A DNA stretch of 64,000 bases. Origin: an uncultured Pseudomonadota bacterium (lineage in GTDB: Bacteria > Pseudomonadota > Gammaproteobacteria > Steroidobacterales > Steroidobacteraceae). Location: the NCBI GenBank assembly GCA_903927005.1, contig CAIYLH010000026.1, positions 1 to 64,000 on the forward strand. Reading direction: 5' to 3'. The translations under genes were made by a program, and so were the position numbers. How positions within the stretch are numbered: the first letter of the stretch is position 1; each line of letters begins with the position of its first letter. This document shows positions 19,729 to 39,822 of this stretch, piece after piece. The notes beneath the pieces were generated by a model. That model was not told where the DNA came from. It did no database searches and saw nothing but the letters and a program-made list of their open reading frames with translations.

Positions 19729-20871
19729 TTAGGGCCGCCGGGCCGGCACCACTCGTACGGTCGGAGCCGACATCAGCTCGATAAACTGACGCGTGAAACG
19801 CGGCAGGTCCACCTCCAGCTGGGCGTGCACCTGCTGCAGATCGAGTTCAGGACGCACGTCGCGACTCCAGGTCAAGGTATTGCCGTAGGAAGGGCCGTGA
19901 CTGATATCGACGTCCATATAGAGCAGCCGCTCCTTGGTGACGATCTTGGGGTTAAGCCAGGCACACGCGGCAAGTTCATCCCAGAGGTAGTAGCGCTCCT
20001 GGGAATACTCGGCGATATAGCGTGCCGCCGGATGCGGCGAATTCGCGATCGCGGCGAGCATCGCCTCGGTGAACATCGCCTGAATTGAAATATCAACCGT
20101 GGTCACGTCGATACGCGGCCAGTGCGCGCGCAAGACGATGTGCGCGGCCTCCGGATCGAACCAGAAATTGAACTCATGCCGCGGGCTGGTGGAGAACTCC
20201 GGATCGTCCGTGTGCGGGTTCAGGCTGCCGCCCATCAGCACGATCCCCTGCGCGAGCTCGGCGAAATGCGGGTCGATCGAGATCGCGAGCGCCACATTGG
20301 TCAGCGGACCTGCGGCATAGATCGTCACCTGGTGAGGATAGGCATGGACCTGCCGAATCATGAAGTGAGCAGCGTCCTCGGCAATTGGCTGCAGGCGCGT
20401 CTCACCTTCGCGCAGCGGTGGGGTCTCCCACGGCCCCGGCATCACCGCCGGCTTCGGCGGCTCGACCAGACCAGCGGCCGAGGTGGTGATTGAGGCCGGC
20501 TTGTGGCCCCAGGCTCCGAGCCAACCCACCTGGCCAACAAGCGCCGTAGCGATGCGCGTCTCTTCCTGAGTGCGCACCAGCGGGAATACCGCGCCGAGCG
20601 CCACCGGCACGTCGCTACGGCCGATCAGCTCGAGCATGCGCAGCGTGTGCCGCGCCTCGTCATCGCGCCAGGCATTGCCAGTGACGATCGTGATGCCAAG
20701 CACTTCGACGTCGGCCGACTGCAGCAACGCCATCGTCGACATCTGGTTGGAGCCGCCCGGACCCGAGCCGTCCTGATCGATGACGACCCGGCGCGCCGAC
20801 GCGGATGCCGGCGACATCGCCAGCAGCGCAAGCGCCGCCAGCAAGAGCGTGCTGAGGATTCTTTTCATCAT
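19729..20871 (-). CDS. Exported nucleoside hydrolase, variant metal-site motif
   Basis: ATG-ATG at 20871 after AAGGAG; 380 residues with a 26-residue signal peptide, so the enzyme acts in the periplasm. The fold of inosine-uridine nucleoside N-ribohydrolases is evident from VLGITIVTGN, AAGPLTNVALA, VLMGGS and the late aspartate in LWDELAA. The usual N-terminal calcium motif DTDxGxDD is replaced by D32-Q-D34-G-S-G-P-G-G-S-N, which lacks the paired aspartates. It ends the ABC transporter unit (45 bases after the ATPase gene), so it probably cleaves the nucleoside that supplies the imported pentose. Confidence 0.88.
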   Translation of the reverse strand: MMKRILSTLLLAALALLAMSPASASARRVVIDQDGSGPGGSNQMSTMALLQSADVEVLGITIVTGNAWRDDEARHTLRMLELIGRSDVPVALGAVFPLVRTQEETRIATALVGQVGWLGAWGHKPASITTSAAGLVEPPKPAVMPGPWETPPLREGETRLQPIAEDAAHFMIRQVHAYPHQVTIYAAGPLTNVALAISIDPHFAELAQGIVLMGGSLNPHTDDPEFSTSPRHEFNFWFDPEAAHIVLRAHWPRIDVTTVDISIQAMFTEAMLAAIANSPHPAARYIAEYSQERYYLWDELAACAWLNPKIVTKERLLYMDVDISHGPSYGNTLTWSRDVRPELDLQQVHAQLEVDLPRFTRQFIELMSAPTVRVVPARRP

Positions 20872-20915
20872 CGATCATCTCCTTCCAGAGCCCGGTTGCG
20901 AGCCCGCTATCGATT

Positions 20916-22439
20916 CTATGCGGCATCCGTGTGGACGACGGCCGTGCCCAGCGCTGCCTTCATCAGCACTTCCGGGGTCGCCTGCTCACGCGAGAAAGTG
21001 CCGGTAACGCGCCCATCATGCAGCATCAGGATCCGGTCGCTGACGCCGATCAGCTCCGGCAATTCACTCGACACCAGCAGTACCGCACACCCGGATTCCG
21101 TCAGCGTGTTGATCAGCGCGTAGATTTCCATTTTCGCGCCCACGTCGATGCCACGAGTCGGCTCATCGAGCATCACGACCTTCGGGGCGGTCATCAATGC
21201 CTTGCCGAGCACGACTTTCTGCTGATTGCCGCCGGAAAGCCGACCGACCACAGCGTCGAGCCCGGTCGCATGGACGCCAAGCTTCGAAAACCATTCGTCG
21301 TTGCGCAGCGCCTCCGAACGCCGTGACACGACACCGCAGCGCGAGACCTGCGCCAGCGACGAGAGCGACAGGTTGAAGCCGATCGATTGCTCGATGCAGA
21401 GCCCATAGCGACGGCGATCCTCAGTGACCAGCGCAAGCCCTGCGCGCAGGCTCGAGTCCGGCCCACCCGCATCGAGGCGATGCCCGTCGAGGGTCACCCG
21501 ACCCGCGGACCGACGACCCCAGGCGCCGTAGAGATGGGACAGCAGCTCCGTACGTCCCGCCCCCATCAGTCCACCGATCCCAAGTACCTCGCCCGCATGC
21601 AGGTCGAACGAAACTCCCTCGATCCGAATCCCACTGCCTGCTGCGGCGACCGAAAGATCCCGCACCTGCAGCAGCGGCGGCCCGCGACGCGCCGTCCGCG
21701 TCGGATAGAGCTCAGCAACGTCCCTGCCGACCATGTGCCTTACCAGCGTGGCGGGATCCGCCGCCGCGATCGGCATCGACGCCACCGTCGCGCCGTCACG
21801 TAGCACCGTCACGCGGTCCGCGATCTTCGCGAGCTCCTCGAGCCGGTGGGAAATATAGATCAGGCCAATACCACTGGCGCGCAGGTCCCGCAGGATCGCC
21901 AGCAGCACCTCGACCTCGTGCTCCGCGAGCGCTGCCGTCGGCTCATCCAGGATCAGGATCCGCGACTCGCGCAGCAGCGCCTTGATGATCTCCACGAGCT
22001 GCTTCTGGCCGATGCCAAGCGACCGCATCGGCGCCGCCGGGTCGAGGCTCACGCCAAAGCGCGCGAGTGCCGCAGCAGCGCGGCGCTCGGCCGCACCCCG
22101 GTCGATGAATACCCCGTACCGCGTGGTCGGTCGACCCAGGAAGAGGTTTTCAGCGACGCTCATTTCATCGATGCAGGATAGCTCCTGATAGATCACGGCT
22201 ATGCCCGCCGCCTGCGCATCGCGGATCGATGCGAAATTCGCCTCCCGTCCATCGAGCTCAAAGCGACCCTGGTAACTGCCATGCGGGTGAACGCCCGACA
22301 GCAGCTTGATCAGCGTGCTCTTGCCCGCACCATTCTCGCCGCACAGCGCATGGATCTCGCCGGCCCGCAGATCGAAACTCACATCAGCCAGCGCAGTGAC
22401 GCTGCCGAAGCGCTTGGTGAGGTGCTCGGCGCGCAGCAT
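20916..22439 (-). CDS. Ribose-type ABC importer, duplicated ATPase subunit
   Basis: 507 residues with two ABC domains. The first has Walker A GENGAGKST and the downstream DEPTAAL Walker B. The second has a degenerate A-loop (LMGAGRTEL), LSGGNQQK signature and DEPTRGID. This asymmetric pair is characteristic of RbsA/XylG-type pentose importers. It overlaps the permease stop (TGATG), showing operon structure with the permease, binding protein and nucleoside hydrolase. Substrate inferred from context: ribose or a nucleoside. Confidence 0.95.
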   Translation of the reverse strand: MLRAEHLTKRFGSVTALADVSFDLRAGEIHALCGENGAGKSTLIKLLSGVHPHGSYQGRFELDGREANFASIRDAQAAGIAVIYQELSCIDEMSVAENLFLGRPTTRYGVFIDRGAAERRAAAALARFGVSLDPAAPMRSLGIGQKQLVEIIKALLRESRILILDEPTAALAEHEVEVLLAILRDLRASGIGLIYISHRLEELAKIADRVTVLRDGATVASMPIAAADPATLVRHMVGRDVAELYPTRTARRGPPLLQVRDLSVAAAGSGIRIEGVSFDLHAGEVLGIGGLMGAGRTELLSHLYGAWGRRSAGRVTLDGHRLDAGGPDSSLRAGLALVTEDRRRYGLCIEQSIGFNLSLSSLAQVSRCGVVSRRSEALRNDEWFSKLGVHATGLDAVVGRLSGGNQQKVVLGKALMTAPKVVMLDEPTRGIDVGAKMEIYALINTLTESGCAVLLVSSELPELIGVSDRILMLHDGRVTGTFSREQATPEVLMKAALGTAVVHTDAA

Positions 22440-23380
22440 CAGTCGCGTCGCCGCCAGGTGTCGGCAAGCACCGCGACCACGATTACCACGCCGGTCACGA
22501 CCCGCTTGAGCGGCTCAGACGCGCCGGCCTGGACCAGCCCAGCCTCGAGCGTCGCCACGATCAGCACGCCAAGAAAACTCTTCGCGACCGAACCCCGGCC
22601 GCCTAACAAGCTGGTCCCACCAACGACAACCGCAGCGATGACCGACAGCTCGAAGCCGACGCCGGCGTTCGGATCGGCTGATCCCAGCCTCGAGCAGTTG
22701 AAGACAGCCGCGACACCGGTCAGCGCACCCAACAGGGCGTGCGCCGCGATACGCGGGCGATCAACGGCGATGCCGGAGATGCGCGCCGCCTCAATGTTGG
22801 CGCCCACGGCAACCAACTGCCGGCCGAGCACGGTATACGAGAGCAGGGCCTGACCGAGCGCCACCGCCAGCAGTGCGCAAAGGAATGCCGGCGACACGAC
22901 CAATCCCGCAATCGGCGTGCCGAGACTCTCGATCGTGTCGCCGATGTACTTGGTGCGGGAATGCGCAGCAAGGAACGCAAGCCCGCGCGCGACCTCGAGC
23001 ATGCCAAGGGTAACGATGAACGACGGCAACCTGAGCTTGACGCTAACCAGACCGCTCACGCTGCCAAGCAGCAGGCCGACCGCGATGCTGCATGCGACCG
23101 CAGCAGGCAACGTCCAGCCCCAGTCGACCATGACGACACCGACCACCGTGCCGCAGAATCCCACCAGCGATCCCACCGACAGGTCTATGCCACCGGTCAC
23201 CATCAGCAACGTCATCCCGGTCGCGACCAGCAGTAGCGCCGGTATCCGGTTCGCCACCGAGCCGAGGGTCGCGGGACTGAGGAAGCCAGCACTCAGCTGC
23301 CCAAACAGCAGCAGCAAACCGGCCCAGACCGCGAGCAGCACGAGCAGGTCGGCAGCCGATCCCCGCTTCAGCCCGAACAT
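22439..23380 (-). CDS. Ribose-type ABC importer, permease subunit
   Basis: 313 residues, about ten hydrophobic spans. The segments TGGIDLSVGSLVG and NIEAARISGI are signatures of the BPD_transp_2/RbsC family. ATG 23380 follows a GGGTGGG ribosome-binding stretch; GTG 23386 is two codons longer. It is the middle gene of the binding protein-permease-ATPase-nucleoside hydrolase unit. Confidence 0.94.
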   Translation of the reverse strand: MFGLKRGSAADLLVLLAVWAGLLLLFGQLSAGFLSPATLGSVANRIPALLLVATGMTLLMVTGGIDLSVGSLVGFCGTVVGVVMVDWGWTLPAAVACSIAVGLLLGSVSGLVSVKLRLPSFIVTLGMLEVARGLAFLAAHSRTKYIGDTIESLGTPIAGLVVSPAFLCALLAVALGQALLSYTVLGRQLVAVGANIEAARISGIAVDRPRIAAHALLGALTGVAAVFNCSRLGSADPNAGVGFELSVIAAVVVGGTSLLGGRGSVAKSFLGVLIVATLEAGLVQAGASEPLKRVVTGVVIVVAVLADTWRRRD

Positions 23381-23396
23381 GCCCACCCTGCCGCGC

Positions 23397-24347
23397 CTAG
23401 CGCGTCACGACATCAACCGGCGTCGCGCGATCCGCGCCCGGCTGACCGGACTTGAGCGACGCGAGCGCAAGCTCGATGCCCTCGACCGCCAGGCGGTCGG
23501 CGTGCTGGTCAGCCGATGCGACCAGTCGGCCATCGGCAAGCAACGACTTGATTGCGGCTATGTTGTCAAAGCCCACGACCATGACGCCTTTGGACTTGCC
23601 GGCAGCGGCCACCGCGGCGGCGGCGCCTAACGCCATGTTGTCGTTAGCGCAAAGCAGCGCGCGCAGCTTCGGGTGCGACGACAGCAGGTTCGCCGCAACG
23701 CTGTTCGCCTTGTCCATTTCCCATTCGCCGCTCTGAATCGCGACGATGCTCGCACCCGCCGCCTTCATCGCATCCTCAAAGCCGGCACGACGCTGCTGAC
23801 CATTGAAGGTAGTCGTGACACCCTCAATGATGGCGACCTCGTCGCCGGCCTTCAGTTGGGCGGCAAGCGCTTCACCAACGCGGCGTGCACCGTCGCGGTT
23901 GTCAGGACCCACGAAGGCCGCCTGCAGGCCGGCCTGGCGCACGACGTCGGCGTCGAGGCGGTTGTCGATGTTCACGATAAGCACACCCTGCGACTGCGCG
24001 CGCCGCAGCGCCGGCACCAGCGCCTTCGAGTCAGCTGGCGCGACGATGATCGCGCGCGCGCCCTGCGCGACGGCCTGCTCCACGAGGTTGACCTGTTCGC
24101 CGATGTCGGTCTCGTTCTTGATGCCAGACACCAGCAACTCGTAATCGGCCGCGTGAGTTGCCTGATGCTGCTGGGCACCCTCCGCCATCGTGGCAAAGAA
24201 ATCGTTAGCCAGCGATTTCATGATCAGCGCGACCTTGGGGCGCGCGTCAGCAGCCGGTCCTGAAGGGGCGGCGGGCTTGCAGCCAACCAGCGTGAGCAGC
24301 ATTCCGAAGGTCACCCCGACGACAATCGCACGCATGCCAGTCCCCAT
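23397..24347 (-). CDS. Ribose-type ABC importer, substrate-binding lipoprotein
   Basis: 316 residues. The leader ends in LTLVGC, a lipobox, so the protein is a lipid-anchored periplasmic binding protein. KVALIMKSLANDFF and the later CANDNMALGA and GFDN segments are typical of RbsB-type (periplasmic-binding-protein type 1) proteins. ATG 24347 is chosen; ATG 24335 after GGGGA is possible. The gene opens the operon and lies under a promoter whose -10 box is covered by a palindromic operator. Confidence 0.94.
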   Translation of the reverse strand: MGTGMRAIVVGVTFGMLLTLVGCKPAAPSGPAADARPKVALIMKSLANDFFATMAEGAQQHQATHAADYELLVSGIKNETDIGEQVNLVEQAVAQGARAIIVAPADSKALVPALRRAQSQGVLIVNIDNRLDADVVRQAGLQAAFVGPDNRDGARRVGEALAAQLKAGDEVAIIEGVTTTFNGQQRRAGFEDAMKAAGASIVAIQSGEWEMDKANSVAANLLSSHPKLRALLCANDNMALGAAAAVAAAGKSKGVMVVGFDNIAAIKSLLADGRLVASADQHADRLAVEGIELALASLKSGQPGADRATPVDVVTR

Positions 24348-24367
24348 TTTTAGATCTCGTTCTTGAA

Positions 24368-24387
24368 TTGCGCAAACGATTGTGCAA
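24368..24387. promoter_or_regulatory. LacI-type operator
   Basis: TTGCGCAAACGATTGTGCAA is a 20-base palindrome with a CpG centre; 8 of 10 base pairs match. The AAACG-AT core is typical of LacI/GalR operators. It lies between the divergent binding-protein and LacI genes and overlaps the -10 box of the former, so the adjacent LacI protein is the obvious ligand. Confidence 0.8.
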
Positions 24388-24407
24388 CGCTCGTAAAGGA
24401 GCGTCAA
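24379..24407 (-). promoter_or_regulatory. Sigma-70-like promoter of the ABC/nucleoside hydrolase operon
   Basis: Read on the minus strand: -35 TTGACG (24407-24402), exactly 17 bases, then -10 CACAAT (24384-24379). It sits 32 bases before the ATG at 24347. The -10 lies inside the operator, the arrangement expected for direct repression. Confidence 0.7.
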
Positions 24408-24441: not shown

Positions 24442-25554
24442 ATGCCGCAATCGCCCGCGTCGCCCTCACTAAAGACCCTCGCCGCCGCGCTTGGCGTCTC
24501 GGTCGCGACAGTGTCACGCGTGCTGAGCGGCCAGGCCGAGCGCTACCGCATCAGCGTCGCCACGCGCAACCGTGTACTCGAGGCTGCCAGCGCTTCAGGC
24601 ATCGTGGTGGACCAGCTGGCGCGGAGTCTGCGGCTACGCCGCACACTGTCCATCGGACTGGTGATCCCCGACATCTCCAACCCATTTTTTGCGCAACTCG
24701 CACGGCAGATCGAGCGCCATGCCAGACGCCACGGCTACTCGGTATTGATTGCAGACAGCGAGGAGGACGCCGAAGTCGAGGCCCAAGCGATCAGGCTGAT
24801 GCTCAGCCGCCGGGTCGACGGACTCATTCTCGCGCCGGTCGGCACCCCGGCGACCAGCGCGCCGCTGCGCTCGCTCGGCGCGCGTCCCTGCGTACTGGTC
24901 GACCGACTGCTGGATGATCCGCCGTTGCCTGCCGTCACCAGCGATCATCGTCGCGGTGCCGAGATCGCCACACTGCATCTGATCGAGCGCGGCCACCGAC
25001 GCATCGCCTGCGTACAGGGCAGTCCAGGCACCTTCGCTAACGACGAGCGGATAGCAGGCTGGCGCACAGCGATGGCAGCTTCTGGCCTCCCCTGTGGCCC
25101 CGAGCGAGTGGCTGGCACCGGCTATTCGATCGATGCTGCACTCGCCGCGGCGCACGCGCTGCTGATGCGTGGCGAGCGCCCGACGGGGATCCTCGCCCTC
25201 GGCAATGTCCTCGCACTGGGAGTGCTGCAGGCGGCACGCGATGCGCGAATTTCGATTCCCGACGATTTGTCGCTCGTGGCATTCGACGACCAGCTCTGGG
25301 CCGCCGTCACCAGCCCGCCGCTGACGATCATTGAGCAGCCGATCGAGGCCCTCGGGCGCGAGGTGCTGGAGCTGCTGTTGGCGCGGATCGCGTCACCCAC
25401 CGGCGGACCACCGACCCGCAACATTCTGCCGGTGCGGCTGATTGAACGCGGCTCCGTTCGCGACCTGCGCCCCAAAATCCCGGCGCTCGTGCCGATTTCG
25501 CATCGTGCCGCCGATCCTTCCGATAACGCGACACGTCGCGTTGCTGCACCCTGA
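24442..25554 (+). CDS. LacI-family transcriptional regulator
   Basis: 370 residues. The N-terminal helix-turn-helix KTLAAALGVSVATVSRVLSG is followed by the hinge and a periplasmic-binding-like effector domain (LVIPDISNPFF, VAFDDQLWA). It is divergent from the ABC operon and followed by the phosphoribosyltransferase, GH127 and adenine deaminase genes on the same strand. I infer repression of the ABC operon through the operator at 24368-24387, relieved by a nucleoside, base or pentose. Confidence 0.95.
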   Translation: MPQSPASPSLKTLAAALGVSVATVSRVLSGQAERYRISVATRNRVLEAASASGIVVDQLARSLRLRRTLSIGLVIPDISNPFFAQLARQIERHARRHGYSVLIADSEEDAEVEAQAIRLMLSRRVDGLILAPVGTPATSAPLRSLGARPCVLVDRLLDDPPLPAVTSDHRRGAEIATLHLIERGHRRIACVQGSPGTFANDERIAGWRTAMAASGLPCGPERVAGTGYSIDAALAAAHALLMRGERPTGILALGNVLALGVLQAARDARISIPDDLSLVAFDDQLWAAVTSPPLTIIEQPIEALGREVLELLLARIASPTGGPPTRNILPVRLIERGSVRDLRPKIPALVPISHRAADPSDNATRRVAAP

Positions 25555-25574
25555 ACTCACTGCCCGAGGATCCC

Positions 25575-26168
25575 ATGCCTGACGCAAATGCGACCGAGCG
25601 TCTCTACATCAGCGCCGATGAGCTCCTCGCTGACTCGTTCCGGCTGGCCCTCAAGATTCTCGATAGCGGGTTCCGCCCGACCCATATCGCGGGTATCTGG
25701 CGCGGCGGCACACCGGTCGGCATCGCGGTGCAGGAGCTGCTCGACTTTTGCGGCGTAAAGACCGACCACATCGCGATCCGCACCTCGCTCTACACCGGCA
25801 TCGGCACTACCGCCGCGCGCGTCCAGGTGCACGGCCTGAACTACCTGGTTCACAGCCTCAACGCCGAGGACTCCCTGCTGATCGTCGACGACGTCTACGA
25901 TTCCGGGCGCAGCATCCGGCAGGTCATCGACGATCTGCGTCATGAATGCCGGCGCAACACACCGCAGATCCGCATTGCAACGATCTACTGCAAGCCCGCG
26001 AACTGTGTACCGCCGGGCGTGCCGCACTACTACCTGCACGAAACCGACCGCTGGCTCGTGTTCCCCCATGAACTCGCCGGCCTGTCAGTCGATGAGATCC
26101 TCGCCCACAAACCCGGCATTGAACCGATCCGCGATCGGCTGCGCGCCTTGCGTGATGGCAATCGCTGA
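25575..26168 (+). CDS. Purine (hypoxanthine-type) phosphoribosyltransferase
   Basis: 197 residues. LLIVDDVYDSGRS at 101-113 is the PRPP-binding loop of type I phosphoribosyltransferases, and GIWRGGTPVG supplies the PPi loop. It most resembles the hypoxanthine/xanthine group that converts a free base and PRPP to the nucleotide. The ATG follows GAGGATCCC, 20 bases after the LacI stop. In this locus it would salvage hypoxanthine made by adenine deaminase. Confidence 0.85.
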   Translation: MPDANATERLYISADELLADSFRLALKILDSGFRPTHIAGIWRGGTPVGIAVQELLDFCGVKTDHIAIRTSLYTGIGTTAARVQVHGLNYLVHSLNAEDSLLIVDDVYDSGRSIRQVIDDLRHECRRNTPQIRIATIYCKPANCVPPGVPHYYLHETDRWLVFPHELAGLSVDEILAHKPGIEPIRDRLRALRDGNR

Positions 26169-26231
26169 GGCCCAGCCCTTGACGCATGAACGGCGAGCGG
26201 CGTGGTGAAGCAACTTCCGGGAGAGGCGCCT

Positions 26232-28646
26232 ATGAATACGCTCTCGAGGCGACGAGCACTGCAGTGGCTGGCAGCCGTATCGGCGGTGCCTGCCTTGCTC
26301 AGCCGTGCCACGGCGTCAGCCACGCCGTCGCCCCTCGCTGCAGCACCAGCACGGCTTGTGCCGCTAGCGGCGATGAGCCGAAGGATCCATGGACGACTGG
26401 GCCAACGGCTGCGCGTCAACGTGCAACGGCGCCTCCTGCAGATCGACGAGCAGGCCTTCATCGCCTGCTTCGTCAATCGTGAGGCCACCGACGGGATGAA
26501 CCAGGCGTGGGCCGGCGAGCACGCTGGCAAGTTCCTGGATGCGGCCTGCATGGCGCTGGCCGAAGAGGCGCACCCGGAACTACGCCTGCTGGTGGACCGA
26601 GTCGTGGCCCAGCTAATCGCCGCCCAAGGCGCGGATGGATACCTTGGCACCTACCCCCTCGATCGACGCTGGAGCGGCTGGGACGTCTGGGTTCACAAGT
26701 ACAACCTGATCGGACTGCTGGCCTACCACGAGCTGACTGGCGACCCCGCGGCGCTGGCATGCTGCCAGCGGATGTTCGAGCTGCTCGAGCGCACGTTTGG
26801 CGACGCTCCCGGCCAACGGAACATCATCGCGGCGGGAGAGCACATGGGCATGGCCGCGACCAGCGTGCTCGAGCCGATCTGTGCGCTATACACGCGTACC
26901 GGTGAGCCGCGCGTACTTGGCTTCGCCGACTACATCGTGCGCGCCTCCGAGCAGGCGGGTGGCCCCCGCATCGTCAGCGCACTGCTGGAACATGGCCGCG
27001 TGCACCGGACGGCTAATGGCAAAGCCTACGAGATGCTCTCCAACCTCATCGGACTGGTGGATTACTACCGCATCTCCGGCAAGTCCGACATCCTGCGCGC
27101 AGTCAAGGCAGCCTGGCAGGACATCGTTCAGCACCAGCGCTACCCGACCGGCAGCGTCAGCGCCGGCGAACACTTTCAGCGCCCCCCGCGCCTGCTGTCG
27201 CTGGCCGCATCCAACGTCGGCGAGACCTGCGCGACCGTCAGCTGGCTGCAACTGAACGCACGCCTGCTACAGCTGACCGGCGAGGCGCGATACGCAGCGG
27301 AAATCGAACGCGCCGCCTACAACCACCTGCTGGCGGCACAGGACGACAGCACCGGCGATTTCAGCTACTACACCTCCTTCGTGGGCCTGAAGGAGCACTC
27401 CCACCAGATGGTCTGTTGCGTCTCTAGCGGGCCGCGCGGCCTTGCCCTGCTGCCGTCGCTGGCCTGGGGCCTGCAGGAGGGGGCGCTGGTCGTGAACCTG
27501 TACGCGCCCGGCCAGGCGACCTGCACGCTGCAGGGGGTAGCGGTGACATTGACGAGCCGGACGCGATTCCCCGACGACGGCAACGTCACGTTGGCCATTG
27601 AGCCGGCGGGCAGCGTTCGCTTCACGCTGCGCATGCGGGTGCCGGACTGGACGAGCCACTTCGAGGCACACGTCGGCGCACAGCGAGTTGTCGCCCAAGC
27701 CGGCGAGTACGCACAGATCACGCGCAGCTGGCACGCAGGCGACGTGGTTCGCATCCAGATGGAGCTGCCGACCCGCATGCTGCCGGGCGCGCCAACCTAT
27801 CCGGACGCGACGGCTCTGCAGTACGGGCCGCAGGTGCTCGCGCTGGAACGGAGCCGTAACGTCGACGTGCCCTACCTGCATCGCACAACGATCAACGCCG
27901 CCCGCGTCACGCCCGGCGACGCGGGCGGGCTGCCCACCTACCGCGCCCCCGGACAACGCGGCATACCCGACGGCGCTGGCGGCCTGCGGTACGAGCCGGC
28001 GGAATTGGTGCTCATACCGTTCGCAGATGCACGCACTTACAGCGTCTGGATGCAACGTCGCGGCGCAGTGCGCCATGACGTCCCGGCCGCCACCGCCTAC
28101 GCTCGCGCAGTACTGTCGACCGCACTGTGGCTCGCCGGCCCCGAGGCGCAGCGACCGGACACCGACATCGCCGAGGCGATGACCGACGAAAATCCAGCCA
28201 CCTACTGCACGATCTACCCACGCGATCCCGGGCCCTGGGAAATCAATCAGGGCGCCCGCGGTAGCCGCGGCGGCCCGGTCTGGTTCACGGTCGTGCTCGA
28301 CGCACCACGACCGCTCGCGCGGATCGTCTTCCGGCATGGGCCGATCGGCCCGCAGGGCGGCTGGTTCGACAGCTCACGCGGGCCGCCGCGCGTGGAGGTC
28401 GTGCGCGAGCCGATACCGACCTGGAAGGATGCGCCGTACCCTAGCGCCCATCGCGCCAACTGGCAGCTGGCGGCAACACTCGCCAGCTACCCACCGAGCA
28501 GCGCAACGACCGCGCCAGCGCTCGCAGCGCCGGCCACCCTGACGGCAGTACTCGCCGCCGGCGCGCCGATCTACGCCATCCGTGTAGTCGGCTATGCCGG
28601 CGGCGACCATGTCAGTTGCTGCGAACTCAGTGGCTACGATGCGTGA
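26232..28646 (+). CDS. Tat-exported GH127-family (DUF1680) glycoside hydrolase-like protein
   Basis: ATG 26232 follows GGGAGAGG. The leader has S-R-R-R-A-L and a hydrophobic run, a twin-arginine signal. Of 804 residues, about 60-560 form the (alpha/alpha)6 barrel of GH127, whose known members are beta-L-arabinofuranosidases. The zinc-thiolate site of that family is conserved: E331 and C333 in GETC, and C395-C396 in VCCVSSG. The C-terminal 250 residues look like beta-sandwich and discoidin-like carbohydrate-binding domains. It sits between a purine phosphoribosyltransferase and adenine deaminase and overlaps the latter by 8 bases, an unusual setting for this family. Confidence 0.9.
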   Translation: MNTLSRRRALQWLAAVSAVPALLSRATASATPSPLAAAPARLVPLAAMSRRIHGRLGQRLRVNVQRRLLQIDEQAFIACFVNREATDGMNQAWAGEHAGKFLDAACMALAEEAHPELRLLVDRVVAQLIAAQGADGYLGTYPLDRRWSGWDVWVHKYNLIGLLAYHELTGDPAALACCQRMFELLERTFGDAPGQRNIIAAGEHMGMAATSVLEPICALYTRTGEPRVLGFADYIVRASEQAGGPRIVSALLEHGRVHRTANGKAYEMLSNLIGLVDYYRISGKSDILRAVKAAWQDIVQHQRYPTGSVSAGEHFQRPPRLLSLAASNVGETCATVSWLQLNARLLQLTGEARYAAEIERAAYNHLLAAQDDSTGDFSYYTSFVGLKEHSHQMVCCVSSGPRGLALLPSLAWGLQEGALVVNLYAPGQATCTLQGVAVTLTSRTRFPDDGNVTLAIEPAGSVRFTLRMRVPDWTSHFEAHVGAQRVVAQAGEYAQITRSWHAGDVVRIQMELPTRMLPGAPTYPDATALQYGPQVLALERSRNVDVPYLHRTTINAARVTPGDAGGLPTYRAPGQRGIPDGAGGLRYEPAELVLIPFADARTYSVWMQRRGAVRHDVPAATAYARAVLSTALWLAGPEAQRPDTDIAEAMTDENPATYCTIYPRDPGPWEINQGARGSRGGPVWFTVVLDAPRPLARIVFRHGPIGPQGGWFDSSRGPPRVEVVREPIPTWKDAPYPSAHRANWQLAATLASYPPSSATTAPALAAPATLTAVLAAGAPIYAIRVVGYAGGDHVSCCELSGYDA

Positions 28647-30381: not shown

Positions 30382-30389
30382 GCTGGCGC

Positions 30390-32911: not shown

Positions 32912-32913
32912 TT

Positions 32914-32924
32914 CCCCCCCCCCC
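32914..32924. repeat. Homopolymer C11/G11 tract before nucleoside hydrolase start
   Basis: Eleven consecutive C on the plus strand (G on the coding strand) end 3 bases before the ATG at 32911. It is the longest homopolymer I noticed. It occupies the ribosome-binding region and could vary in length. Confidence 0.9.
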
Positions 32925-32942
32925 AAGTCGCCGCAGACCGGC

Positions 32943-34253
32943 CTAGGCGACGTAGATAAACCTGACGACGAACAGCGCGGCAAGCAGGTAGACGAGCCAG
33001 TCGCTGCGGCGGGCTTCACCCTTGACCAGCTTCAACACCGCATAGGTGGTGATGCCGAATGCCAAGCCGTTGGCGATCGAATAGCTGAGCGGAATCATGA
33101 TGACCGTGACGAAGGCCGGGATCGCGGCGGACGGATCGCTCCAATCCACTTCCGTCAGCGCACCTAACATCATCGCCCCAACGAGGATCAGCGCAGGGGC
33201 TGTCGCCGCCGCCGGAATCGCCTGCACCAGCGGCGCGAAGAACAGCGTTATCAGGAACAGCACACCGACGACGACGGCCGTCAGTCCGGTGCGACCGCCG
33301 GCGGCGACGCCGGAGGCGCTTTCGATGTAGCTGGTGACCGGACTGGTGCCCGCAACTGCGCCGACCGCCATCGCCACCGAATCGACGATCAGGATGCGGT
33401 TGAGGCGTGGAACGGAGCCGTCCGGCGCCACAAGGCCGGCATTGCGGGTCACCGCGACCAGAGTACCGACGTTGTCGAACAGGTCAACGAACAGGAAGAC
33501 GAACACGATCTCCAGCAGCGACATCCCAATGCCGCCCTTCAGGTTCAGGGCCGCACGCAGGTCCAGCTTGCCGGCGGTCGCCGCAAGATCCGCAAGCGAA
33601 TAACTCGCCGCGGTGAAGTGGCCAAGGCCGACCGCCCAGCCGAGCGCCGCGGTCAGCAGGATGCCCAGCAGCATGGCGCCTTTCACGCGACGGACCTGCA
33701 GCGCCGCTATCAGCACGATGCCGAACAAAGATACCGCGGCCCCCGGCGTGGTCAGGCTGCCCAAACCCACCATGGTGCCGGGCTTGGCGACGATGATGCC
33801 GGCATCCGCCAGGCCGATGAAGGCGATGAACAGCCCCACGCCGCCGCCTACCGCCGCGAATAGCCACCGCGGCAAGGCGGCAATGATCAACTGGCGCACA
33901 CCGACCAGCGTGAGCAGCAGGAATGCGATGCCTGAGATGAACACGCAACCGAGCGCGGTTTCCCAGGGAACGCCCATGCCCTTGACGACGGTGAAGGTGA
34001 AGTAGGCGTTGAGACCCATCCCCGGCGCCATCGCCAATGGGTAGTTCGCGACCAGACCCATCAGGATGCAGCCGAACCCGGCCGCCAGACAGGTCGCTGC
34101 CGCCACCGCGGCAATGGGCATGCCGGCGGCGCCCAGAATCGTCGGATTGACGACGACGATGTACGCCATCGTCAGGAACGTCGTCACGCCCGCGATGATT
34201 TCAGTGCGGATGGACGTGCCGCGTCCTTGGAGGTCAAAGAAGCGCTGCAACAT
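32943..34253 (-). CDS. NCS2-family purine base permease (AzgA-like)
   Basis: 436 residues, about 12-14 membrane spans. TFLTMAYIVVVNP near the N-terminus, GMGLNAYFTFTVV and a later FLFVDLFDNVGTLV are hallmarks of the AzgA-like guanine/hypoxanthine branch of NCS2 transporters, which import purine bases by proton symport. Placed between the receptor and the exported nucleoside hydrolase, it would take in the base released in the periplasm. Confidence 0.95.
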   Translation of the reverse strand: MLQRFFDLQGRGTSIRTEIIAGVTTFLTMAYIVVVNPTILGAAGMPIAAVAAATCLAAGFGCILMGLVANYPLAMAPGMGLNAYFTFTVVKGMGVPWETALGCVFISGIAFLLLTLVGVRQLIIAALPRWLFAAVGGGVGLFIAFIGLADAGIIVAKPGTMVGLGSLTTPGAAVSLFGIVLIAALQVRRVKGAMLLGILLTAALGWAVGLGHFTAASYSLADLAATAGKLDLRAALNLKGGIGMSLLEIVFVFLFVDLFDNVGTLVAVTRNAGLVAPDGSVPRLNRILIVDSVAMAVGAVAGTSPVTSYIESASGVAAGGRTGLTAVVVGVLFLITLFFAPLVQAIPAAATAPALILVGAMMLGALTEVDWSDPSAAIPAFVTVIMIPLSYSIANGLAFGITTYAVLKLVKGEARRSDWLVYLLAALFVVRFIYVA

Positions 34254-34355
34254 GCCGTTATCTCCGCTATCCCGCGTTCAAGGGGAGCTATTGAAGCCGA
34301 TCGGAGGCCCCTTGGCTACCAGCGAACCGGCGAGGTGACGGAGGACCCTCCCGGA

Positions 34356-34383
34356 CCGGCGCGTCGCCCTGGCGACACGCCGG
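34356..34383 (-). terminator. Intercistronic hairpin between receptor and NCS2 permease
   Basis: CCGGCGCGTCGCC (34356-34368) pairs with GGCGACACGCCGG (34371-34383) with one mismatch. No U tract follows on either strand. It could cap the receptor message, attenuate read-through into the permease, or stabilise RNA. Termination is not proven. Confidence 0.4.
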
Positions 34384-34398
34384 CCGGTAGCGAGGATG

Positions 34399-36777
34399 TT
34401 AGAACTTCGCGCTGAACTGCGCGCCAACGATCCGTGGGTCGTTGATCATGCCCGTCGCGTTCTCGAAGTCGATGGCGCCCACCGCGCGGATCTCGTTCGT
34501 GCAGTTACGGCAAAACACGGCGGCGTCGTACTTCTTGTTCGCCCAGCTGTAGCCGACCCGTGCACCGCCCTGCACCATCGCAGGACCGGTAAACTCCTTC
34601 GACTCGTACAGGAAGAAGTTGATCTTGCTGCGGTAGGACCAGTCGGTATACGCGTAGAACTCGCCGCTAGCGCCAAACGGGATGGCGTAGCGCAGCGAGA
34701 CGTCGGCGATGTACTTGGCGGCCTGCGGCAGCGGATTGCCATCGATCAACACGTACTGGTTGAAGTTGGCATCCGGCGCCGTCAACGGGTTGGTGATGTT
34801 GCAGTGTGCGTCACTCGGCACACCCGGCACCCACGCCCAGTTAAAGCACTGGCCGACAGCAAGGTTCTTGTCCTTGATCTTGGTGTCGTTGAGGCTGCCG
34901 CTGATGTTCAAGGACAGGGTCGGCGTCAGCTGCGCGGAGAACTCGACCTCTGCGCCCTGGCCGATCGTATGCGCGGCATTGATCAGCGAGGTCTGGTTGC
35001 TGGTGCCACCGACGGCCGTCAACTGCTGGTGACTGACGTCGTAGTAGAAGACGTCAAACGCGATGCGCGCGCGACGATCGAACAGGTCCGCCTTGATACC
35101 GACCTCGTACGAGATGTTGTCTTCCGAGCGAGCGACCTGAATCGCCTGCGTACCGGTCGGCGCACCAAAGCTCGGCGCCCGGAAACCCGTCGCGACGCGC
35201 CCGTACAGGTTCGCGTCCGGTGTCAGCTGGTAGGTGGCACTGAGATCCCAGCTGAAGTTGGTCGCACTGACCGCCTTGTGCAGGGGCCCGGTCAACGGCA
35301 GCGGCTCGCCCGCGGCGGTCTCGGCGACCGGCACGTCGAAGGTCTTGTGGTCAGCGGTGTAACGCGCGCCGCCGCGCAGCTTGAACTTGGAGGTCATGGC
35401 GTATTCAAGCGAACCGAACACAGCCTGCGCGTCATTCTTCTGGCGGGAATTGGTCGTATCAACGATGGTCAGGCCGACCATGCTGTAGTTGTGCGAGCTG
35501 TCCTCGACGTCCTCGTCGAACAGGAACACGCCGGCCTGCGCGGTCAGCGCGCTCGACAGGTTCCACAACGCGCGAACTTCCTGGGTGATCTGGCGGTGGT
35601 TCTTGATGCCACCACCAGACTCCACCGGGAACGGAATCACGCCCGGGCCCGACGCGTCCGCACCGGTGCAGCCGCCTTCATTGAAGTTGCAGAACACATT
35701 GCCGGAGCCGAAGCCACCGTCGATATCGCCGATCGTGTTGTAGTGCAGGATCGACTCGTAACCGGTGATCGACTGGATCGTCACCGACGGCAGCACCCAG
35801 TTCAGGTGCACGCTGCCGCCGGCCATGCTGTAGGACTGGCCGTTGTAGCCATCGGCGTAGAACTTCGACGGATCGAATCCGGGAACGAGGTTGTTGGTGC
35901 CTAGATCGATGATGTTGGCGCGGAACAGGCGCGCCGAGCCATTGAGTGCGCGCCCGTGCACGTTGAGCAGTGCGTTGAACGAGTCGCTCGGCTTGTAGAG
36001 CAGCTGTACGCGCGCCGCCCAGTCGTCGTAGCCCTCGAGCTTGGTGCTGTTGACCGGATCATCAACCCAGTTGTCACGGTGCTGGCCCTGCGTCGAGAAG
36101 CGCATCGCGATCGTGTCACTGACCGGCAGGTTCACGACGCCCTCGAGGACAGCGGTGTTGTACGTGCCGTCCGACAGGCTGCCGTAACCCGAAAACTCAC
36201 CAAGCACCGGCTTGGCCGACTCCAGCTTCACGACACCAGCGGGCGAGTTGCGGCCGAACAGCGTGCCCTGTGGGCCGCGCAGGACTTCGACGTCCGCCTG
36301 GTCGAAGATCGGGAATCCCTTCAGCGACGGGTTCTCCTGTACGACGTCGTCGTACACGAGCGAGACCGGCTGCGAAGCAAACGAGTTGAAGTCGGTGTTG
36401 CCGTAGCCGCGGATATAAAAGCGCGGGAAGGTGCGGCCGTTGGACGACTCGATGTTCAGGCTGGGGACCTTGAAGGCCAGCTGGCGGATGTCATCGCCAG
36501 AGCTGCCGAGCGCGGCGAGCGGCTCGCCGCTCAGCACCGAGGCGGACACCGGCACGTCGATCAGCTTCTCCGCATGGCGCGTCGCGGTGACGACGATCTC
36601 GGCCAACGAGGCGCCACTATCGCCGCCAGCCGCGTCAGCGGCGTAGGCGGCGCCCGGCAGCAGCAGCGCTGCGGCCGACATACCCGCCGCTACCGACACG
36701 AAGCGCGCGGCGCGCAGCTGTGCGACGACCGCGTTGCGCAGGGCCGAAGACGACCACGAGTGAATGCTGTCCATCAT
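34399..36777 (-). CDS. TonB-dependent outer-membrane receptor, nucleoside-locus member
   Basis: ATG-ATG at 36777/36774 follows GGAGAGG; 792 residues. The signal peptide ends near AYA-A (about 46), and LAEIVVTATR is the TonB-box region. The plug has VEVLRGPQGTLFGRNSPAG, and the barrel ends with a terminal phenylalanine (AQFSAKF). It opens a minus-strand unit with an NCS2 base permease, nucleoside hydrolase and esterase, so a nucleoside or nucleoside conjugate is the likely ligand. Its promoter has a perfect -35 and an operator at the -10. Confidence 0.95.
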   Translation of the reverse strand: MMDSIHSWSSSALRNAVVAQLRAARFVSVAAGMSAAALLLPGAAYAADAAGGDSGASLAEIVVTATRHAEKLIDVPVSASVLSGEPLAALGSSGDDIRQLAFKVPSLNIESSNGRTFPRFYIRGYGNTDFNSFASQPVSLVYDDVVQENPSLKGFPIFDQADVEVLRGPQGTLFGRNSPAGVVKLESAKPVLGEFSGYGSLSDGTYNTAVLEGVVNLPVSDTIAMRFSTQGQHRDNWVDDPVNSTKLEGYDDWAARVQLLYKPSDSFNALLNVHGRALNGSARLFRANIIDLGTNNLVPGFDPSKFYADGYNGQSYSMAGGSVHLNWVLPSVTIQSITGYESILHYNTIGDIDGGFGSGNVFCNFNEGGCTGADASGPGVIPFPVESGGGIKNHRQITQEVRALWNLSSALTAQAGVFLFDEDVEDSSHNYSMVGLTIVDTTNSRQKNDAQAVFGSLEYAMTSKFKLRGGARYTADHKTFDVPVAETAAGEPLPLTGPLHKAVSATNFSWDLSATYQLTPDANLYGRVATGFRAPSFGAPTGTQAIQVARSEDNISYEVGIKADLFDRRARIAFDVFYYDVSHQQLTAVGGTSNQTSLINAAHTIGQGAEVEFSAQLTPTLSLNISGSLNDTKIKDKNLAVGQCFNWAWVPGVPSDAHCNITNPLTAPDANFNQYVLIDGNPLPQAAKYIADVSLRYAIPFGASGEFYAYTDWSYRSKINFFLYESKEFTGPAMVQGGARVGYSWANKKYDAAVFCRNCTNEIRAVGAIDFENATGMINDPRIVGAQFSAKF

Positions 36778-36966
36778 TAACCTCTCCACTGTTGCTTGTG
36801 CGACACAGGCGGCGCCGCACAGCAGGTTGTTTGAGCCTGATCCCCAGATCCCATGGTGGCGCCTCGCGGGACGCAGGTCGAAGCCAGCTCATCGCAGGGC
36901 CGGACACGCTGTGGTGCCTGCCTAAACGATCTCTGGCGCCTGCGCGCACACACGTTGCTTCCGCCA

Positions 36967-36982
36967 AGTGAAACGTTACACT
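36967..36982. promoter_or_regulatory. LacI-type operator at the receptor promoter
   Basis: AGTGAAACGTTACACT is a 16-base palindrome with a CpG centre and 7 of 8 pairs matched. The core AAACGTT is shared in style with the operator at 24368-24387, but the flanks differ, which fits recognition by the second LacI protein at 38212. It overlaps the -10 box. Confidence 0.78.
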
Positions 36983-37006
36983 ACACAGCGTTTCCGGCCC
37001 TGTCAA
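36978..37006 (-). promoter_or_regulatory. Sigma-70-like promoter of the receptor operon
   Basis: On the minus strand: perfect -35 TTGACA (37006-37001), 17 bases, -10 TAGTGT (36983-36978). The -10 is weak and buried in the operator. Confidence 0.65.
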
Positions 37007-37252
37007 AAAGCCAAAAAGGCGAGCAAGGGCGCGTTCTGACTAGCTATATCGGCTACCCTCGGGCCTGAGAAAAACGACTTTTTGAGGGACTGAATTTGCG
37101 CACGTCGCAGCAGCTCACCGACGCTGACCCTTGCCGGGGCACGATCGCATCTTGTGCGTTGCGCATAGACAACAGTGACTTTCAGCCGCTGTCGATCCCG
37201 TATAGCGGGAGCCAGATCAGCAGCTTACGCGGTGCACTTAGGGTGATCTGCA

Positions 37253-38203
37253 ATGAGCATTGACCGCCCCCGTCCGGTGCTGGTGATCGGCAGTGCAAAT
37301 GTAGACGTCGCCGTGGCGACCGCCACCCTGCCCCGCCCTGGCGAGACCGTGTTTGGCGACAGCTCCGCCATTAGTGTCGGCGGCAAGGGCGCCAACCAAG
37401 CCGTCGCCGCCGCGGCGAGCGGCGCCGAGACGCGATTTATCGCCCGCACCGGCAGCGACGCGTTCGGAGACATGGTCCGCGACGAACTTGCACGACGGGG
37501 GCTGCCCACCGCGCAGGTGCTGGCGGTTACCGAGGCAGGCACCGGGCTTGCCGCGATCTACGTCGAACACTCCGGCCAGAACTGCATCGTGGTCGTACCG
37601 GGCGCAAACGGTCTGCTGACACCTACCGACATTGAAGACGCGCAGGGCTCGATTGCGGCGGCGGCGATACTGGTACTGCAGTGCGAGATTCCGCATCAAA
37701 GCCTCTATCGCGCCATCGATCTGGCCAAAGAGTGCGGAACGCCGGTACTGCTCAATCCCGCTCCCTGCCAGGGGCTCGACCTCAGCCGGGTCGCCTCGAG
37801 CGTTACCTACCTCATACCCAACGAGAGCGAGGCGGCGCAGTTATTAGCGCGACCGGTCGAGTCCCTTGCCGACGCTCATGACGCCGCGCTGCGCCTGCAC
37901 CGGCTCGGCGTGACCTGCGCCATCGTGACGTTAGGCGCACGCGGTTGCGTAGGCGCCTGGGAAGGCACGACGCAGCACTTTGCCGCGATGCCAGTCAATG
38001 CAATCGACACCACTGGCGCGGGCGATGCATTTGTCGGCTGCTTTGCTGCGTCCATTGCTGCGGGCCTGACGCCATCCGCTGCGATCCGCCGCGCCATCGT
38101 CTACGCCGCCCTGTCCACCACCCGACGCGGCGCACAGGTGTCGTATCCGGAGCGTGCCGAATTCGAGGCGGCTCTGGCCCTGCAGCCTGCGGTCGACGGC
38201 TAG
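37253..38203 (+). CDS. rbsK: Ribokinase
   Basis: 316 residues of the PfkB family. IGSANVDVAV at the N-terminus, GGKGANQAVAAA (substrate-binding signature 1) and DTTGAGDAFVG (catalytic aspartate and anion hole) are all present; the spacing and GGKGANQA favour ribokinase over fructokinases. It phosphorylates ribose to ribose-5-phosphate. It starts the plus-strand unit ribokinase-LacI-thymidine kinase, opposite the receptor unit, and would consume the ribose brought in by the ABC importer at 20.9-24.3 kb. Confidence 0.93.
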   Translation: MSIDRPRPVLVIGSANVDVAVATATLPRPGETVFGDSSAISVGGKGANQAVAAAASGAETRFIARTGSDAFGDMVRDELARRGLPTAQVLAVTEAGTGLAAIYVEHSGQNCIVVVPGANGLLTPTDIEDAQGSIAAAAILVLQCEIPHQSLYRAIDLAKECGTPVLLNPAPCQGLDLSRVASSVTYLIPNESEAAQLLARPVESLADAHDAALRLHRLGVTCAIVTLGARGCVGAWEGTTQHFAAMPVNAIDTTGAGDAFVGCFAASIAAGLTPSAAIRRAIVYAALSTTRRGAQVSYPERAEFEAALALQPAVDG

Positions 38204-38211
38204 CCACGCAA

Positions 38212-39195
38212 ATGGCCACGCTGCGCGACCTCGCGGCCGCCGTCGGAGTCTCGGTCACGACGGTCTCCAACGTCCTCAACGGCCGCCCCAACGTCGGCAG
38301 CGATATCCGCAAACGCGTACTGCGCGCGGCCAAGAAGCTCGGCTATCGACCGAACCTTGCCGCCCAGGCAATGCGGACAGGCCGCACCCGCGCGATCGGC
38401 CTGGTGCTGCCTGATCTCACCAATCCATTCTTCCCCGAGCTCGCACAGGCGGTGGAAAACACGGCCCGCAGCGCCGGCCTGCTGGTCTGCCTGATCGACA
38501 GTCAGGGCAAGACCGAGGGCGAGGCAGATGGATTCTCACTCCTGATGCAGCACGCCGTCGACGGCGTGATCTGGTGCCCACTCGGCCCCACCGCACCTGC
38601 GACGCTGAAGAACTTCTCGAAGCCTGTCGTCCTGATCGACCGCCCACGGCAGGGCTACGACGTGGTCCAGTCCGACTACGCGATGGGCGGTCGCCTACTC
38701 GCCGAATACGCAGTGCGCATGGGCCACACCAGCGTCGGACTGCTGTCAGGGCCCGAACGCATTGAGAGCGCGCGCCAGCGCCGCGACGGCTTCATCGGCG
38801 CTCGCCCGCGCGAACTGAAAGTCGCCTGGGAAGTAGGCGTCGGCTTCGACGGCATGCTCACCCGCGAAGCAGTCGCGGCACTGACCCGACGTCGTTCGGC
38901 GACACTGATCATCTGCGGCAACGACCTGATCGCGATCAGCGCCATACGCTGCCTTTCAGAACACGGTATCCGCGTTCCGGAGGATGTCTCGATCACCGGC
39001 TTCGACAACATCCGCTGGACAGAGCTGGTAACCCCCCGCCTGACCACCATCGCCCAGCCCATTGCCGCGATCGGCGCAAAGGCCGTCGAACTGATGCGCG
39101 AGCGAATGAGCGGCGAGCCGCTGGTGAGCCGCCGCACGATCTTCGACGTCGCCCTCGTCGAGCGCGATTCGGTCCGTCGCCTACCGCCCCGCTAG
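38212..39195 (+). CDS. LacI-family transcriptional regulator
   Basis: ATG 38212, 8 bases after the ribokinase stop; 327 residues. The helix-turn-helix is ATLRDLAAAVGVSVTTVSNVLNG, followed by a hinge (YRPNLAAQAMRTG) and a sugar-binding-type effector domain with LVLPDLTNPFFPEL and ITGFDNIRW. It is the likely ligand of the operator at 36967-36982 controlling the receptor unit. The effector is probably ribose or a purine-related metabolite, by context only. Confidence 0.95.
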   Translation: MATLRDLAAAVGVSVTTVSNVLNGRPNVGSDIRKRVLRAAKKLGYRPNLAAQAMRTGRTRAIGLVLPDLTNPFFPELAQAVENTARSAGLLVCLIDSQGKTEGEADGFSLLMQHAVDGVIWCPLGPTAPATLKNFSKPVVLIDRPRQGYDVVQSDYAMGGRLLAEYAVRMGHTSVGLLSGPERIESARQRRDGFIGARPRELKVAWEVGVGFDGMLTREAVAALTRRRSATLIICGNDLIAISAIRCLSEHGIRVPEDVSITGFDNIRWTELVTPRLTTIAQPIAAIGAKAVELMRERMSGEPLVSRRTIFDVALVERDSVRRLPPR

Positions 39196-39237
39196 GCGCG
39201 AGCGCGCAGCCGCTGGCGGTGTGGCATCCTTGCCGCC

Positions 39238-39822
39238 GTGGCCAAGCTCTACTTTTATTATTCGACCATGAACGCCGGCAAGTCGGCAGCATTGCTGCAG
39301 GCGAACCACAACTATCGCGAGCGCGGCATGGACACACTCGTCTACACCGCCGCCGTCGACGTTCGTGGTGGCGGCCGCGTCCATTCGCGGATCGGCCTCA
39401 GCGCCGCGGCGCAAGCCTACGACGCCGCCACCGACTTCCTGGCCGATGCACGCACGCTCAGGCAGGCGCCAACCCCTGGCTGCGTGCTGATCGACGAAGC
39501 ACAATTTCTCACCGAGGCACAGGTGCGCACGCTCGGCCGCGTCGCCGACGAACTTGATCTGCCAGTGCTGTGCTACGGCCTGCGCACTGACTTCCGCGGC
39601 CGGCTGTTCGGCGGCAGTGCGGCACTGCTGGGCTGGGCGGACAGCCTGGTAGAAATCCGTACGATCTGTCACTGCGGCCGCAAGGCAACGATGGTCGTGC
39701 GCGTCGACGCGCAGGGCAGGGTCGAGCCGGACGGCGCACAGGTCGAGATCGGCGGCAACGAACGCTACGTTTCGCTGTGCCGTCGCCACTTCGAAAGCGC
39801 CCACGCAAGCGGCAGGCTCTGA
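39238..39822 (+). CDS. tdk: Thymidine kinase (TK1 type)
   Basis: GTG 39238; 194 residues. The P-loop STMNAGKSA, the DEAQFLT Walker-B-like segment, the YGLRTDFRG lasso region and the zinc-binding CHCG...LC cysteine pairs match the TK1 family exactly. It phosphorylates thymidine and deoxyuridine. It is on the same strand 42 bases after the LacI gene, extending the nucleoside theme to deoxynucleoside salvage, although tdk is also a common stand-alone gene. Confidence 0.95.

Follow-up and report, generated by a model that had tools for sequence, protein, structure and literature searches.

Gene content and organization of the locus

We analyzed a 64,000-nucleotide stretch of DNA (hereafter the window: positions 1 to 64,000 of contig CAIYLH010000026.1, assembly GCA_903927005.1) from an uncultured bacterium of the family Steroidobacteraceae (Pseudomonadota). 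Between 19.7 and 39.8 kb, the window carries a set of genes that probably forms a LacI-controlled locus for the scavenging of nucleosides (ribosides), including two predicted nucleoside hydrolases (NH1 and NH2) and a TonB-dependent receptor. Open reading frames (ORFs) of the window were assigned to families by Pfam and NCBIfam profile matches (Table 1). These matches supported every gene named in a preliminary description of this DNA, made without database searches, and added two members absent from its list, a GH127 furanosidase and a carboxylesterase.

Judged from strand and spacing, the locus comprises four transcript groups. NH1 and the RbsABC-type genes (minus strand, 19729-24347) are divergent from a LacI1-phosphoribosyltransferase (PRT)-GH127-adenine deaminase group (24442-30381), and a second minus-strand group encoding the carboxylesterase, NH2, an NCS2 permease and the TonB receptor (30390-36774) is divergent from a ribokinase-LacI2-thymidine kinase-TPR group (37253-40678). 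The components of the sugar ATP-binding cassette (ABC) importer score under the NCBIfam equivalog cut-offs (RbsA 492.8 of 745 bits, RbsC 157.8 of 398, RbsB 125.9 of 337) and are assigned at the family level only. The source genome (4.0 Mb, 139 contigs) is rated 97.4% complete, and absences from it are therefore not absolute.

Table 1. Features of the predicted nucleoside locus, with window coordinates and the basis of each assignment
Feature	Position	Strand	Basis
NH1, nucleoside-hydrolase fold, leader, altered active site	19729-20871	-	PF01156 194 bits; fold model; residue counts
RbsA-type ATPase, CUT2 sugar ABC importer (sugar putative)	20916-22439	-	profile match, under NCBIfam equivalog cut-offs
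RbsC-type permease	22439-23386	-	profile match
RbsB-type binding protein, lipobox LTLVGC	23397-24347	-	profile match
Putative LacI1 operator TTGCGCAAACGATTGTGCAA	24368-24387		palindrome, recurs in relatives
LacI1 regulator	24442-25554	+	profile match
PRT, purine-type	25575-26168	+	best NCBIfam match xanthine PRT, 32.7 bits (cut-off of 138 missed)
GH127 furanosidase, Tat-like leader	26232-28646	+	PF07944 180 bits; Glu-x-Cys and Cys-Cys motifs
Adenine deaminase, accessory	28594-30381	+	TIGR01178 563 bits (cut-off 472.5)
Carboxylesterase with leader, one in-frame stop (31464-31466)	30390-31928	-	profile match
NH2, nucleoside hydrolase with leader, complete DTDIGDDIDD motif	31925-32911	-	PF01156 140 bits
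NCS2 nucleobase permease	32943-34253	-	PF00860 156 bits
TonB-dependent receptor, not SusC type	34399-36774	-	PF00593 and PF07715
Putative LacI2 operator AAGTGAAACGTTACACTA	36966-36983		palindrome between divergent receptor and ribokinase transcripts
Ribokinase	37253-38203	+	TIGR02152 316.9 bits (cut-off 299.65)
LacI2 regulator	38212-39195	+	profile match
Thymidine kinase, accessory	39238-39822	+	NF003300 above cut-off

Elsewhere in the window, an amidohydrolase gene is divergent from another TonB-dependent receptor (6211-11021), and a tryptophan halogenase (643 bits) is encoded at 61942-63486.

Conservation of the grouping and its predicted regulation

The core of the locus consists of the receptor, NCS2, NH2, esterase and GH127 genes beside the divergent ribokinase-LacI pair, an order that a second genus of the family shares. 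NH2 homologs with at least 67% identity are present in 11 of 217 family genomes (the window's included), belonging to two genera, and three more genomes have homologs at 36-39%. Among these 11 genomes, the same contig carries the receptor in nine (the others are G012, where two contigs both break inside NCS2, and G063, whose contig measures 3.4 kb); NCS2 is seen in nine, the esterase in ten and GH127 in nine, and the divergent RbsK-LacI2 pair adjoins the receptor in nine. Of 23 NH1-bearing genomes of the second genus (g19), 18 lack NH2 at the thresholds used. No NH2 homolog was detected outside the family at E ≤ 1e-30 in 396 order-sampled or 369 class-sampled genomes (samples that overlap the family), and among 12 of 80 plasmid records the best NH2 relative reaches 35% identity.

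The gene-neighborhood comparison proposed in the preliminary description showed that the receptor, a hydrolase with a leader, the base permease, a sugar importer, the ribokinase and a LacI regulator are conserved together. The grouping is therefore real and not due to chance. The self-contained scheme drawn in that description is partly supported. The adenine deaminase (only 32% matches in the stretches of relatives) and the thymidine kinase (found there only in L003) are not conserved and were dropped from the core, and one relative, G001, has the remaining genes without receptor or NH2 next to them.

Under a different explanation, a ribose operon (LacI1, RbsABC and NH1) adjoins an unrelated receptor-purine permease operon by chance. 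The locus is indeed split between two LacI regulators whose predicted operators differ, and NH1 and the receptor lie on separate contigs in G106 and G108. Against this stands the persistent association of receptor, NH2, kinase and LacI2 in both genera, between which the sugar importer of the cluster differs, as well as the arrangement in G207, where the receptor directly precedes RbsA- and RbsC-type genes (44 and 39% identity), a weak RbsB match (22%), DeoC, an aldehyde dehydrogenase and ribokinase. We rejected a chance neighborhood on the basis of this conservation and regard it as very improbable.

Receptor homologs (E ≤ 1e-120, with the best four candidates per genome scored) occur in 24 of the 217 family genomes. 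Nucleoside or pentose genes adjoin every one of the 15 that reach at least 53% identity (window included); none of the nine distant homologs (43-52%) is accompanied by any of 17 listed partners (thresholds 32% identity, 30% coverage), and seven of these nine stretches contain weak fragments (ABC ATPase, 27-31%; amidohydrolase, 28%). It should be noted that the partner queries derive in part from these same loci, and that three of the nine distant stretches are short (8.6-14 kb). Around the receptor and kinase, the sugar importer varies: some loci have RbsABC, others a permease of the RhaT/ureide type accompanied by DeoC and aldehyde dehydrogenase, and others again a different ABC system, in the company of NUP, guanine deaminase and a flavoprotein of the xanthine-dehydrogenase type. 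G159 carries a NUP-ABC-guanine deaminase-NH1-receptor cluster together with the flavoprotein, and G119 has the receptor, NUP and an ABC importer, its sole window-derived partner being a 33% ABC ATPase. With the exception of G001, these loci regularly include an outer-membrane receptor, while the sugar importer changes.

Other clusters of related composition were also found. A purine nucleoside cluster in L021 (3804-18423) combines NUP (PF06516) and an ABC importer with guanine deaminase and NH1, and also has two TonB receptors and a flavoprotein of the xanthine-dehydrogenase type; the second-genus loci L035 (3127-5532), L033, L037, L038, L040 and L041 have a different TonB receptor (TBDR10) beside LacI2. 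No window homologs surround the receptor relatives of Niveispirillum and Novosphingobium (38-42%), and plasmid-borne NCS2 relatives at 61-64% in Sphingobium and Granulicella have neither the receptor clade nor a nucleoside hydrolase alongside; in Sphingobium the adjoining genes encode a PNP-family protein and a molybdopterin dehydrogenase, and in Granulicella the neighbor is annotated as a purine nucleoside permease.

Both divergent promoter regions contain a palindrome that may serve as a LacI operator. The putative LacI2 site (pattern TAGTGWAACGTTWCACTA, at most three mismatches) is present in the window and in all ten other loci where a single stretch holds both LacI2 and a receptor of this clade (L003, L004, L005, L007, L020, L027, L029, L139, L140 and L153), and occurs twice in L032, which has a different receptor. 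Across 65 family stretches, allowing four mismatches, 16 LacI2 sites were counted vs 2.3 in mononucleotide shuffles, the pattern having been drawn from the same loci. At up to three mismatches the window site is the only LacI2 match in the whole genome; since the reversed control likewise matched once, the evidence for this operator lies in position and conservation and not in the count. The LacI1 palindrome TTGCGCAAACGATTGTGCAA, located between RbsB and LacI1, recurs with at most two mismatches in L003, L004, L009 and L018, and is the sole exact match in its own genome, where up to three mismatches gave two sites vs three for the reversed control. Neither regulator reaches the cut-offs of the NCBIfam RbsR and UriR models. 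The simplest reading is one dedicated LacI protein per divergent promoter, each with a predicted operator.

Predicted nucleoside hydrolases with leaders and the GH127 protein

NH1 and NH2 both exceed the PF01156 cut-off (34.2 bits) and are the only matches to this family in the genome. A fold model, built for NH1 only (pLDDT 78.4, pTM 0.80), returned nucleoside or riboside hydrolases as all 50 Foldseek matches listed. The genome has no match to the NupC family (PF07662) in a profile search and one match outside the locus to the NupG-type family PF03825 (35.5 bits). This protein fits MFS_1_like far better (238.7 vs 36.5 bits), and a NupG-type main route was rejected, in agreement with the absence of NupC/NupG-type permeases noted in the preliminary description.

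Both hydrolases have A-x-A-type sites and a hydrophobic stretch ahead of the catalytic motif (NH1, MMKRILSTLLLAALALLAMSPASASA; NH2, read from the ATG at 32911, MGKHVQVALWFAALMLGGWGLAGAAPASA). By a crude measure, the mean Kyte-Doolittle hydropathy of 10 residues just ahead of this motif, NH1 scores 3.0 and NH2 2.48, and the same feature is found in their relatives, with values of at least 2.25 in 33 of 38 NH1 places (window included; of the other five, four were not matched by the motif pattern and one is cut by a contig end) and at least 2.34 in all 11 NH2 stretches. Five of six cytoplasm-type controls (Ade, PRT, RbsA, RbsK and TK) scored 0.69-1.69; the sixth, LacI1, reached 2.2, exceeding the receptor (1.93) and GH127 (2.08). 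Other products of the locus also carry leaders: the esterase has a hydrophobic stretch, GH127 an RR-type leader and RbsB a lipobox. The signal peptides ascribed earlier to both hydrolases are thus borne out on this measure, and point to export of NH1 and NH2, without distinguishing the periplasm from a place beyond the outer membrane.

The active sites of the two proteins differ. NH2 retains the DxDxxxDD motif and Asp242 in 9 of 9 sequences of alignment A2, three of them distant, and has Phe at the His241 equivalent in seven of the nine. NH1 has DQDGSGPGGSN where DxDPGxDD is usual: its Asp14 equivalent is Ser, Thr or Pro in 18 of 18 sequences (alignment A1) and Ser or Thr in 29 of 29 (alignment A3), the Asp15 equivalent is Asn or Asp, and the His241 equivalent is Trp in all sequences of both alignments, while the equivalents of Asp8, Asp10, Asn168 and Asp242 are kept. 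The roles of these residues are presumed to be those of the Crithidia enzyme. The view of the two as a pair of nucleoside hydrolases therefore stands as regards family and leaders, but a like function is uncertain, NH1 being without usual catalytic residues.

As the usual Asp14 and His241 equivalents are absent, the substrate of NH1 is uncertain. In G001, it is the sole hydrolase found with the NH2 query, beside the importer, PRT, NCS2 and ribokinase genes, which argues for a nucleosidase function. If Asp14 contacts the 2'-hydroxyl, as we presume, its replacement could conceivably favor deoxynucleosides, which would fit the DeoC and aldehyde dehydrogenase genes of relatives. The unusual active site could also be taken to mean that the ligand of the receptor is a modified or cofactor-like nucleoside (e.g., queuosine-type or NAD-derived), taken up for salvage and not as a carbon source, and TonB receptors usually serve scarce, bulky ligands. 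We consider this highly unlikely, since the ribokinase, the sugar importer, and DeoC and aldehyde dehydrogenase in relatives imply that the sugar is used as carbon.

NH1 homologs (E ≤ 1e-20) occur in 36 of the 217 family genomes, at 38 places. Ribokinase shares the stretch in 21 of these, and at least one of six window-derived partners (NH2, NCS2, RbsK, LacI2, RbsC and PRT) in 24; the count rises to 33 when permease, DeoC, adenosine deaminase, guanine deaminase, NUP, NCS1 and DeoB are added, with queries taken from the same loci and hence partly circular. The five places without any partner are L012, L019, L028, L045 and L047; two of these contigs, L012 and L045, are short. A patatin domain fused to an Omp85-type barrel (window 17551-19692) adjoins NH1 here and in L004 and L008.

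In named genomes, the surroundings of the best 80 of 240 NH1 relatives were searched with 21 window-derived queries (flanks of up to 10 kb, many contigs being shorter). Of these 80, 73 come from beyond the window's own relatives, chiefly from Acidobacteriota, at 57-73% identity. NH1 as a universal marker of nucleoside loci was ruled out by these 73 loci, which, generic fragments apart, were without the other window genes and around which neighbor clustering revealed recurrent unannotated genes. These mostly acidobacterial homologs (L062-L136; 57-73%) are closer to NH1 than those in other genera of its own family, such as g19 (approximately 41-48%), a distribution for which horizontal transfer is a possible explanation.

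GH127, present in 9 of 11 NH2 genomes, is an unexpected member of a nucleoside locus. Its Glu-x-Cys motif reads GETCA in 5 of 7 sequences and GETCV and GEMCV in the remaining two, and the Cys-Cys motif is present in 7 of 7; we assume the roles usually ascribed to these motifs. The carboxylesterase gene is a single reading frame in which this assembly has one in-frame stop; the absence of an internal stop in 8 of 8 stretches checked in relatives (G063 left out) indicates that the gene is either newly broken or affected by a sequence error.

The place of these two genes in the conserved core, and the name beta-L-arabinofuranosidase given to most of the sequence relatives with solved structures of the GH127 protein, would agree with a locus that targets non-nucleoside furanosides (e.g., plant L-arabinofuranosides or ribosylated compounds), in which GH127 and the esterase are the main enzymes, related N- or O-pentofuranosides being the substrates of the hydrolases. 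This explanation is distinctly improbable: NCS2 and PRT point to nucleosides, as do the adenosine and guanine deaminases, DeoB, DeoC, NCS1, NUP and the xanthine-dehydrogenase-type flavoprotein of relatives, and in G008, which is without GH127, the remainder of the locus stays.

In the nucleoside locus that we consider probable, the predicted task of GH127 and the carboxylesterase is to trim ribofuranosides that are larger or carry decorations. A further version, which we hold to be unlikely though less so than non-nucleoside furanosides, takes such ribofuranosides, and not free nucleosides, as the true substrate; GH127 would then be a D-ribofuranosidase, the esterase would remove acyl groups, and NH1 (Ser for Asp14, Trp for His241) would represent a new class of exported nucleosidase with changed sugar specificity (e.g., 2'-deoxy) behind a nucleoside-specific TonB receptor clade.

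Proposed scavenging route and comparison with known systems

For the nucleoside scavenging locus that we favor, we propose the following route, based on gene content, conserved linkage and predicted features. The TonB-dependent receptor, whose linkage suggests that it transports nucleosides, would concentrate the substrate across the outer membrane, after which NH2, and in many relatives NH1, would cleave the N-glycosidic bond, presumably in the periplasm. The base would enter through NCS2 and be salvaged by the phosphoribosyltransferase, here with adenine deaminase as well, and the pentose would enter through the CUT2 ABC importer and be phosphorylated by ribokinase. Through the predicted operators, each regulator would repress a pair of divergent transcripts: receptor-NCS2-NH2-esterase and ribokinase-LacI2 in the case of LacI2, importer-NH1 and PRT-GH127-deaminase in that of LacI1.

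Several observations weigh against this route. Nucleosides are small enough to cross porins, and, given one strong PNP-family protein encoded elsewhere in the genome, phosphorolysis may take place inside the cell. In the genomes searched, NH2-type loci are confined to two genera of one family; NCS2 does not lie between receptor and NH2 in G062 and G108, and G001 has the importer, PRT, NCS2, ribokinase and NH1 with no receptor or NH2 nearby. NH1 has neither the DxDxxxDD motif nor the His241 of PF01156 enzymes, and other window genes were not found near it in the 73 mostly acidobacterial loci, barring weak or generic fragments (ABC ATPase, DAGK and GFO). As for regulation, genome-wide operator counts at up to three mismatches are no higher than those of the reversed-pattern control, and among 11 LacI2 loci without this receptor clade (L033-L038, L040-L042, L044 and L049; L032 excluded) the site was found, at up to four mismatches, in L035 only, several of the others having only a degenerate AACGTT-centered core.

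If the route is correct, the receptor would be a candidate TonB receptor dedicated to nucleosides, its clade could be used as a marker, and the sugar importers would be interchangeable. The exported nucleosidase-like clade with an unusual active site to which NH1 would belong, frequent in Acidobacteriota genomes among the matches, would bear on the turnover of DNA and RNA building blocks.

NH1 and NH2 belong to the same family as RihA, RihB and RihC of Escherichia coli, which we take to be cytoplasmic, and the NH1 model has the same fold. Unlike these enzymes, both have export leaders and are encoded with a receptor and separate importers, and they miss all Rih cut-offs.

LacI regulators have been tied to nucleoside use in a survey that includes UriR, AdeR and HpxR (PMC4052901), a property shared by the regulators proposed here; in contrast to the present locus, the main text of that survey contains neither "TonB" nor "outer membrane". 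In Xanthomonas albilineans, a TonB receptor operon (XALc_0643/0646) includes a putative nucleoside hydrolase and has no known substrate (PMC3542200); the likeness to the window, where the receptor cluster also contains a nucleoside hydrolase, concerns gene content only.

A polysaccharide utilization locus (PUL)-like system for ribose and nucleosides is already known in Bacteroides thetaiotaomicron, so that the novelty in kind claimed in the preliminary description does not hold. Ribose use by this species is reported to depend on the Rus locus: ribose use requires the Rus locus (BT2803-2809), with the regulator RusR (PMC12596196), Rus-type clusters make nucleotides and nucleosides usable carbon sources (PMC11699363), and one table row groups ribokinase, a TonB receptor, SusD, a nucleoside hydrolase and a DMT permease (PMC10434189). 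The window likewise has a single cluster that encodes a TonB-dependent receptor, a nucleoside hydrolase, a ribokinase and a permease, and the RhaT/ureide-type permease beside ribokinase in second-genus loci (PF07168, 49.8 bits; far below the RhaT model cut-off) recalls the DMT-type permease of Rus. Unlike Rus, the window locus has no SusC/SusD pair: its receptor scores 34.6 bits against the SusC model (cut-off 368), and no SusD family member was found among the window ORFs scanned. It also differs in its LacI proteins with palindromic putative operators, its separate NCS2 and ABC sugar importers, its GH127 and its occurrence in Pseudomonadota, and is likened to Rus by gene content and not by protein sequence.

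A SusD-less, LacI-linked form with split import and GH127 and esterase genes appears to be new, no description of it having been found in the literature searched, as far as the accessible parts of those publications extend. Rus is the closest known system, and the window locus is a SusD-less, LacI-linked counterpart of it in Pseudomonadota; if the proposed route is right, PUL-like capture of nucleosides would not be limited to Bacteroidota, and a family of Pseudomonadota would have its own version.

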